Positions 23,025-23,911 of a stretch of 64,000 nt of DNA are shown here, piece after piece. The notes under the pieces were generated by a model. The model was not told the DNA's origin, did no database searches, and saw nothing but the letters and a program-made list of their open reading frames with translations. Both the position numbers and the translations under genes were made by a program. Source of the DNA: Pseudomonas sp. PSE14 (GTDB taxonomy: Bacteria; Pseudomonadota; Gammaproteobacteria; Pseudomonadales; Pseudomonadaceae); contig NZ_CP115669.1 in assembly GCF_029203285.1 (NCBI RefSeq), positions 1-64,000 of the forward strand, given 5' to 3'. How positions within the stretch are numbered: the first letter of the stretch is position 1; each line of letters starts with the position of its first letter.

Positions 23025-23114
23025 GTAGGAGCGAGCTTGCTCGCGAACAAATTCCCGACGACGCTGGCGTGAGGCGGTTCGCGAGCAAGGGCTAGGCGCC
23101 CCCCTCGGTCCTAC
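23025..23114. repeat. REP pair with enlarged right arm
   Basis: Left arm GTAGGAGCGAGCTTGCTCGC; right arm GGTTCGCGAGCAAGGGCTAG continuing GCGCCCCCCTCGGTCCTAC. The enlarged arm is identical to that at 26971-27007. It separates the AsnC-type gene from the yhhQ leader. Confidence 0.87.
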
Positions 23115-23221
23115 AGGTTTGCCCGGCGGCATATCTCGGTATTGAACAAATTTTGCGCAATAAAACCTGACTTCCGGGTCCGGATCGTATACACTGCGCG
23201 CCGCTCGGCATGGTGCCGGGC

Positions 23222-23252
23222 ATGGGTTCCCTCACCCCATCGACGAAAAAGG
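23222..23252 (+). ncRNA. Candidate preQ1-I riboswitch in the yhhQ leader
   Basis: A short H-type pseudoknot candidate: P1 arm ATGGG (23222-23226), loop TTCCCTCAC (23227-23235) with a C directly before the second arm, P1 arm CCCAT (23236-23240), then A-rich tail CGACGAAAAAGG (23241-23252). The layout follows the Thermoanaerobacter preQ1-I aptamer (CTGGG, 10-base loop ending AAC, CCCAG, A-rich tail ending AAGG). The final GG can pair with the loop CCC and is also the ribosome site of yhhQ, eight bases before ATG 23261. Ligand binding would therefore block translation. The downstream gene encodes a queuosine-precursor transporter, which fits. A TATACA (23188-23193) could be the -10 box. Confidence 0.72.
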
Positions 23253-23260
23253 CCCGAAGC

Positions 23261-23911
23261 ATGTCGGCATCCCTTCCGGCGGCAAGGCGCGGCGCACTCG
23301 CCGGCCTGGTCGCGTTCCACATCCTGATCATCATCGCCAGCAACTACCTGGTGCAGCTGCCAATGACCCTCTTTGGCTGGCACACCACCTGGGGCGCGTT
23401 CAGCTTCCCGTTCATCTTCCTGGCCACCGACCTCACCGTCCGCCTGCTCGGCAAGCGCCCGGCGCGGCTGGTCATCGCGCGGGTGATGATCCCGGCGCTG
23501 CTGGCTTCCTACGTCATCTCGGTGATCTTCCAGGAAGGCGCCTTCAGAGGCCTCGCTTCCCTGGGCGAATTCAACACCTTCGTCGCGCGGATTTCCCTGG
23601 CCAGCTTCCTGGCCTACGTGTTCGGCCAGGTCCTCGACATCCAGGTCTTCGACCGCCTGCGTCGGATGCGCCAGTGGTGGATCGCCCCGGTGGTCTCGAC
23701 CCTGTTCGGCAACCTGCTGGACACCTTCACCTTCTTCTCCATCGCCTTCTGGCACAGCGACAACCCCTTCATGGCTGAGCACTGGGTGGAGATCGCCTGG
23801 GTCGACTACGGCGTGAAGCTGGCGGTCATGCTGATGCTCTTCGTGCCGCTCTACGGCATGCTGCTCAGCGCCATTACCCGCAATCTGCGGCGCCAACCCG
23901 CGGCCATCTGA
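23261..23911 (+). CDS. yhhQ: Queuosine precursor transporter YhhQ (VUT family)
   Basis: Inner-membrane carrier that imports preQ0/preQ1 for queuosine tRNA modification. The protein is 216 residues with about six hydrophobic segments and the family blocks FSFPFIFLATDLTVRLLG and DTFTFFSIAF. In-frame starts further upstream (23210, 23222) lie inside the riboswitch-like leader; ATG 23261 follows AAAAAGG at eight bases and is preferred. The gene is unrelated to ectoine metabolism yet sits between the AsnC-type gene and doeC, flanked by REP elements. Confidence 0.9.
   Translation: MSASLPAARRGALAGLVAFHILIIIASNYLVQLPMTLFGWHTTWGAFSFPFIFLATDLTVRLLGKRPARLVIARVMIPALLASYVISVIFQEGAFRGLASLGEFNTFVARISLASFLAYVFGQVLDIQVFDRLRRMRQWWIAPVVSTLFGNLLDTFTFFSIAFWHSDNPFMAEHWVEIAWVDYGVKLAVMLMLFVPLYGMLLSAITRNLRRQPAAI

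Follow-up and report, generated by a model that had tools for sequence, protein, structure and literature searches.

A very probable preQ1-I type III riboswitch upstream of yhhQ in Pseudomonas sp. PSE14, and accessory hairpins in the leaders of its relatives

Introduction

The closest described system is the leader of yhhQ in Escherichia coli, a preQ1-I type III riboswitch for which a co-crystal structure with bound preQ1 is available; the RNA has nanomolar affinity for preQ1 and switches in live cells (PMC10622847). Type III was defined on 293 sequences, almost all from Pseudomonadota, and its listed features are a loop rich in pyrimidines, a UU motif, an AC that carries the specificity cytosine, and an AAGG tail (PMC11625349). 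This AAGG, which serves as the Shine-Dalgarno, is preceded by 4-5 conserved adenines (PMC10622847, PMC11625349). A 2017 paper places yhhQ under preQ1 riboswitches of various classes across bacteria (PMC5372724). The type III subtype and its link to yhhQ are therefore already published. The available portions of the literature contain no report of type III in Pseudomonas, or of a hairpin preceding a type III aptamer; the 293 defining sequences (McCown 2014) may well include Pseudomonas.

Here we consider the leader of yhhQ in a window of 64,000 nucleotides (the whole stretch of DNA that was analysed) from Pseudomonas sp. PSE14. A preliminary description had proposed that it is a compact preQ1-I riboswitch whose tail hides the ribosome-binding site of a queuosine-precursor transporter. 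We conclude, with a probability of about 0.93, that this leader is a preQ1-I type III riboswitch, the known subtype that controls yhhQ. The argument uses the sequence itself, its conservation, its genomic link to yhhQ, the covariation of its stem P1 and its match to a model built from unrelated families, all of which are established below. What is new in this analysis is the presence of an accessory hairpin, P0, in many leaders of the Pseudomonadaceae (hereafter the family), and of an insert in L3 in one genus.

Results and discussion

The leader and its gene

The lengths given in the preliminary description (a 5-bp stem, a 9-base loop and a 12-base tail) are correct by direct reading of the sequence (Table 1). 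The gene downstream is indeed a queuosine-precursor transporter, with 337.5 bits against the profile NF008406 (cut-off 252) and 187.8 bits against TIGR00697.

Table 1. Features of the yhhQ leader (positions in the window).
Feature	Position	Strand	Basis or remark
Probable sigma-70 promoter: CTGACT (23167-23172), 17-nt spacer, TACACT (23190-23195)	23167..23195	+	Sequence reading, inference
P0, 8-bp accessory hairpin abutting P1: arms 23203-23210 and 23214-23221, loop UGG	23203..23221	+	Predicted fold
P1 5' strand, AUGGG (DNA: ATGGG)	23222..23226	+	Sequence reading; two outer pairs covary
Aptamer loop UUCCCUCAC (DNA: TTCCCTCAC)	23227..23235	+	Identical to E. coli loop; type III signature UU-CCCUC-AC
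Loop sub-parts: UU motif; anti-Shine-Dalgarno C-C-U (23230-23232); specificity C (23235)		+	Roles transferred from the available text of PMC10622847
P1 3' strand, CCCAU (DNA: CCCAT)	23236..23240	+	Sequence reading and covariation
Tail CGACGAAAAAGG	23241..23252	+	Sequence reading
L3: variable linker CGACG and A-tract AAAAA	23241..23250	+	Sequence reading
Type III tail signature AAAAAGG	23246..23252	+	8 nt upstream of the yhhQ ATG
Shine-Dalgarno AAGG, which preQ1 and P2 are predicted to bury	23249..23252	+	Homology to E. coli
Predicted P2 pairs: U23232-A23250; C23231-G23251; C23230-G23252			By homology, from E. coli U11-A28, C10-G29 and C9-G30
yhhQ (COG1738/QPTR), 7-cyano-7-deazaguanine/7-aminomethyl-7-deazaguanine transporter, 216 aa	23261..23911	+	Profile matches

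The start of yhhQ, which the preliminary description had moved to 23261, is supported by the spacing of 8 nt between the GG and the ATG, and by the frame of the ATG that lies inside P1. When the start is set mechanically, as the earliest ATG, GTG or TTG that leaves 3 nt or more after the GG, the 83 leaders with this inner ATG divide into 40 with frame 0 relative to the start, 23 with frame 2 and 20 with frame 1 (28, 19 and 19 of 66 after removal of duplicates). Since the frame varies among leaders, the leader is non-coding, which supports the start at 23261.

The candidate promoter matches the consensus at 8 of 12 positions, and a promoter scanner with a 9-of-12 threshold found none. In 67/67 unique family leaders measured, a TAnnnT box that agrees in 4 or more of 6 positions is located 22-32 nt upstream of P1; the measurement covered these 67 of the 93 unique family leaders, the other 26 being outside it. 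Further upstream, the segment 23028-23098 contains a palindrome with 13-nt arms (23036-23048 and 23077-23089). With at most 2 mismatches allowed, the genome has 557 copies of the 22-mer at 23028 and none of the reversed control; we take this palindrome to be of the REP type.

Identity with the E. coli type III aptamer, and the blind spot of Rfam

The leader of E. coli K-12 yhhQ reads AUUGGGUUCCCUCACCCCAAUGGUUAAUCAAAAAGG, and its loop is letter for letter that of the window. The class identity follows from the loop, the A-tract and the GG, which are shared with this leader of published structure. All sequence features listed for type III in the available text of PMC11625349 are present as well. 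The preQ1-I assignment of the preliminary description can thus be refined to type III, all nine loop letters being those of the E. coli RNA. The double role that it gave to the tail GG, as Shine-Dalgarno and as predicted partner of the loop, also holds up, with the pairing P2 assigned by homology. By the same homology, C23235 would read the ligand, and A23249 would be the counterpart of the Shine-Dalgarno adenine that touches preQ1.

Folding energy does not single out the element: the 31-nt aptamer has no advantage over its shuffles (z +0.77), and the 53-nt leader is unremarkable (z -0.50). The AAGG is unpaired in the predicted ligand-free fold, which comes from a program that cannot draw pseudoknots.

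A search with the Rfam preQ1-I family had been suggested as the first check. With RF00522 (PreQ1, gathering score 39 bits, Rfam release 15), there is no match at the locus, and none genome-wide at E up to 10. The same model gives no match in the proven E. coli yhhQ leader at E up to 10, and none of 18 further type III loci reaches the gathering score. The miss is therefore uninformative against type III: Rfam release 15 is blind to it in all 19 other leaders tried, and that first check would have argued against a correct call. Surveys based on Rfam are likely to score Pseudomonas, E. coli and their relatives as free of preQ1 riboswitches. In a published survey that used Rfam 14, 15 of 60 pathogens are credited with PreQ1 riboswitches; E. 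coli and Pseudomonas are both missing from the alphabetical list of species with PreQ1-I, in the part that runs up to Staphylococcus (PMC9495176).

A covariance model from unrelated leaders

We built a covariance model, R1, from 56 leaders that are all from outside the Pseudomonadaceae. They were taken from 75 unique leaders; the 19 left out are L238, eleven leaders whose linkers are longer and seven that have one C more. The match of R1 to 23221-23253 reaches 41.6 bits (E 3.7e-8 over 64 kb), against 8.5 bits for the runner-up in the window; over the whole 6-Mb genome, at E up to 10, the only other match has 17.1 bits (E 3.47). A second match of the search pattern in this genome (L120, position 4714245; 17.1 bits) has neither P1 nor yhhQ and was rejected.

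R1 matches 99/146 genomes of the family, every one of which belongs to the set of 102 that carry a yhhQ over the cut-off. The remaining three of the 102 are G026, whose leader (L107) is devoid of the motif, and G153 and G154, whose leaders (L056 and L039) do carry it; we infer that G153 and G154 were outside the 146 genomes scanned with R1, the full set having 148. G018, a genome of the same genus, has neither yhhQ nor an R1 match.

Distribution upstream of yhhQ

The motif is present upstream of the yhhQ match in 109/113 Pseudomonadaceae loci, hence in 110 of the 114 leaders read when E. coli is included (at most 2 differences allowed); genomes with weak or partial yhhQ matches (G033, G049 and G149) are outside these 113 loci. 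The motif-free loci are L107 and three distant homologues, L112-L114 (E-values 5.5e-10 to 1.4e-8). L107 belongs to a small-genome relative with a true yhhQ; its leader is without the riboswitch and has an inverted repeat that contains a probable Shine-Dalgarno. L112, L113 and L114 are distant COG1738 homologues in family genomes, also without the riboswitch, and they may represent another branch of transporters.

A pattern scan of named genomes gave at least 119 stretches. Among the matches listed, yhhQ is directly downstream in 110, one sequence (L192) ends 23 nt past the site, and in eight the 1500 nt that follow (868 nt for L217) are devoid of yhhQ; these eight (L146, L150, L159, L217, L223, L224, L226 and L247) were excluded from the covariation counts. 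Judging by titles, the organisms among the matches listed are presumably Gammaproteobacteria for the most part, with some Betaproteobacteria (e.g. Chromobacterium, Pollutimonas). Type III leaders also precede yhhQ in two Desulfobulbaceae-type MAGs (L168 and L225), which we take to fall outside Pseudomonadota; contamination is possible. Variant aptamers were seen too (L079, the Vibrio leaders L151, L167 and L180, and also loci such as L092, L093, L097 and L099); in these, P1 is either one G shorter or separated from the specificity cytosine by one additional C.

In a class-wide search of 274 genomes, the true pattern gave 6 matches, 5 of them upstream of yhhQ, and the reversed control gave 8. 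The control count being no lower than the true count, the pattern alone is unspecific, and both P1 and the gene are required. In viral contigs, 17 matches in 17 stretches, none upstream of yhhQ, were rejected as chance; 12 of the 17 are copies of two unrelated sequences.

Covariation of P1

An alignment of yhhQ leaders, which had been proposed to look for compensatory changes in the stem, reveals such changes, at the two outer pairs of P1, below its closing end of G-C pairs. Removal of duplicates from the 225 sites used for the counts leaves 80 unique 21-nt cores. In 69/80 of these, pair 4 is canonical (T-A 45, C-G 16, A-T 8), against a shuffled mean of 45.9. Pair 5 is canonical in 53/80 and unpaired in 27/80, against a shuffled mean of 30.8. 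A sixth pair shows no excess in the 80 cores (27 against 25.2 shuffled) and pair 3 hardly varies in them. Pairs 1 and 2 and the loop are fixed by the search pattern in the pattern-derived sites, so that they are uninformative there.

An alignment of family leaders with that of E. coli (63 sequences, six family leaders with an L3 insert being left out) has 12 cells changed on both sides of P1 against 2.2 in shuffles, and a covariation score of 0.118 against 0.041; 0/500 shuffles reach either value. Slid controls come near on some measures (10 cells for slide +1, a score of 0.112 for slide +3), and the number of pairs changed on both sides and the number of pair types are matched by 73/500 and 283/500 shuffles, respectively. 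In the 56 non-family leaders the counts are 30 cells against 9.8 and the score is 0.269 against 0.071, which 0/500 shuffles reach, and no slide exceeds 10 cells or 0.099; here again, the number of pairs (434/500) and of pair types (487/500) is not above the shuffles.

These data bear on a very different explanation, according to which there is no riboswitch and the Shine-Dalgarno is blocked by a protein or a small RNA bound to the conserved loop and tail. A protein site could show the near-invariance that is seen in the loop, and the element is not recognised by Rfam, but the sequence of P1 changes while its pairing is kept, and the E. coli RNA, whose loop is identical, needs no partner to bind preQ1 at nanomolar concentration (PMC10622847, available text). 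We consider this explanation to be most improbable, and retain the type III riboswitch.

The letters of the loop and tail that would form P2 are complementary yet invariant in the compared leaders, which leaves no covariation signal possible; P2 is thus beyond the reach of covariation, and its assignment follows, by homology, the E. coli structure. The linker of L3 varies in length and sequence among relatives and the A-tract is conserved. At 23233, all four bases (C, A, T and G) occur among relatives. At the equivalent position of the E. coli RNA, it is the phosphate that the ligand contacts (PMC10622847), and the variability seen here would fit with such a contact.

A probable hairpin near the predicted start of the transcript

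P0 of the window, taken alone, has a z of -1.37, and 19/200 shuffles fold as well. In the 86 unique 24-mers found directly upstream of P1 in Pseudomonadaceae, the mean energy is -9.5 kcal/mol (mean z -1.7, 74/86 at -5 or below), against -3.7 kcal/mol (z -0.5, 31/109 at -5 or below) for those of 109 other leaders, a set that holds some Pseudomonas. The contiguous-stem score is 13.5 in the family against 7.5 shuffled, and 5.9 against 5.2 in the other leaders. Under a stricter rule (at least 5 bp, a loop of 3-6 nt, within 4 nt of P1), P0 is present in 67/93 unique Pseudomonadaceae leaders. Among the 26 without it, some have interrupted, longer-looped or more distant hairpins; the L060 group, L038, L086 and L103 have at most 3 bp upstream of P1.

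Comparison of nearest neighbours within the family (41 leader pairs, each counted once) gives 10 double changes that kept the pairing and 2 that broke it; for single changes, the respective counts are 20 and 11. When the register of P0 is slid, 0-2 double changes are kept and 1-2 broken. A count on 188 leaders of all groups, with reciprocal pairs, gives 15 kept and 2 broken; the same neighbour test on the 109 other leaders gives 2 and 2. In an alignment of one clade, the observed covariation value is reached in 27/500 shuffles, so that a single clade supports the pairing weakly. RNAalifold on a MAFFT alignment of P0 and P1 (86 leaders) returned three pairs only, without P0 and without covariation; P0 was missed because it has no common register among leaders.

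The distance from the -10-like box to P0 is most often 7 nt (22/67; range 3 to 17), from which P0 is predicted to be at or near the 5' end of the transcript. The dyad that we call P0, being close to the predicted start, is also where operators are common, and it could be a DNA operator rather than an RNA hairpin. The 11 single changes that break the pairing, against 20 that keep it, show that it is not under strict constraint, which suits an operator. Operators usually keep their sequence. That of P0 differs between genera while the pairing is kept (as the double changes indicate), its loops span 3 to 6 nt (the only sizes allowed in the search) and 66/469 of its pairs are G-U. An operator at P0 thus seems to us unlikely, and its case concerns P0 only.

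We read the RNA hairpin as protecting the 5' end or insulating the aptamer; a strict stacking role is disfavoured by the gap of 0-4 nt between P0 and P1. In 9/398 family genomes, all of one genus (L026, L034, L037, L038, L041, L043, L259, L264 and L265), the L3 tail has a second hairpin, inserted upstream of the A-tract and downstream of P1, with a length of at least about 20 nt; the letters of its stem differ while the pairing is kept. A smaller L3-tail hairpin was seen in Shewanella (L212). Our tentative proposal, which is on balance doubtful, is that the Pseudomonadaceae leader is a composite switch made of P0 at the start of the transcript, near P1 or abutting it, and the aptamer, with a second hairpin in L3 in one genus. 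If it were so, P0 could seal the 5' end of the mRNA, prevent the aptamer from mispairing or stack on it from below, and the two hairpins, if functional, would be ways to embellish an aptamer of 30 nt.

Proposed mechanism

The pairing P2, the ligand, the burial of the Shine-Dalgarno and the direction of regulation are all transferred from the E. coli structure. When preQ1 is plentiful, be it through import or through synthesis in the cell, the leader would fold into an H-type pseudoknot. In this state P1 (AUGGG/CCCAU) would be formed, the specificity cytosine would be paired with preQ1, and the A-tract would run along P1. The loop would then hold the AAGG, and ribosomes would be blocked from starting yhhQ; when preQ1 is scarce, the tail would be free and the transporter made. 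QueC, QueF and Tgt are present in the genome, which means that preQ1 can be made inside the cell, and a sufficient supply would shut the import gene.

The same fold might instead respond to preQ0 as the physiological signal, since this is what YhhQ imports: the transporter reportedly prefers preQ0, and in-line probing data on type III RNAs had earlier been interpreted as suggesting it (PMC10622847, available text). However, the E. coli type III RNA binds preQ0 about 138-fold more weakly than preQ1 (PMC10622847), the loop letters here are identical to those of that preQ1-preferring RNA, and the genome encodes QueF, which converts preQ0 to preQ1; we regard a preQ0 switch as quite improbable. The analysis thus places the leader, with high probability, among known translational switches, and it fixes the start of yhhQ.

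Comparison with known preQ1 riboswitches

Compared to preQ1-II and preQ1-III (RF01054 and RF02680), which give no Rfam match at the window locus, the ligand and the control of translation would be the same, but these classes adopt HLout folds (PMC11625349, available text). With preQ1-I types I and II (RF00522), the leader would share the H-type pseudoknot, the small size of the aptamer and a cytosine that reads the ligand; types I and II differ by purine-mediated loop contacts and by sequestering less of the Shine-Dalgarno (PMC10622847, available text).

The type III riboswitch of E. coli is the nearest. The two leaders have in common the loop UUCCCUCAC, the GGG/CCC core of P1, the A-tract, the AAGG Shine-Dalgarno as tail, and the position directly upstream of yhhQ. 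They differ in the outer pairs of P1 (AU..AU here, UU..AA in E. coli) and in the linker (5 nt here, 8 nt in E. coli). Lastly, P1 is directly preceded here by an 8-bp P0 of -12.6 kcal/mol; in E. coli, the 24 nt upstream of P1 form no more than a weak 5-bp hairpin (-2.5 kcal/mol, z -0.29).
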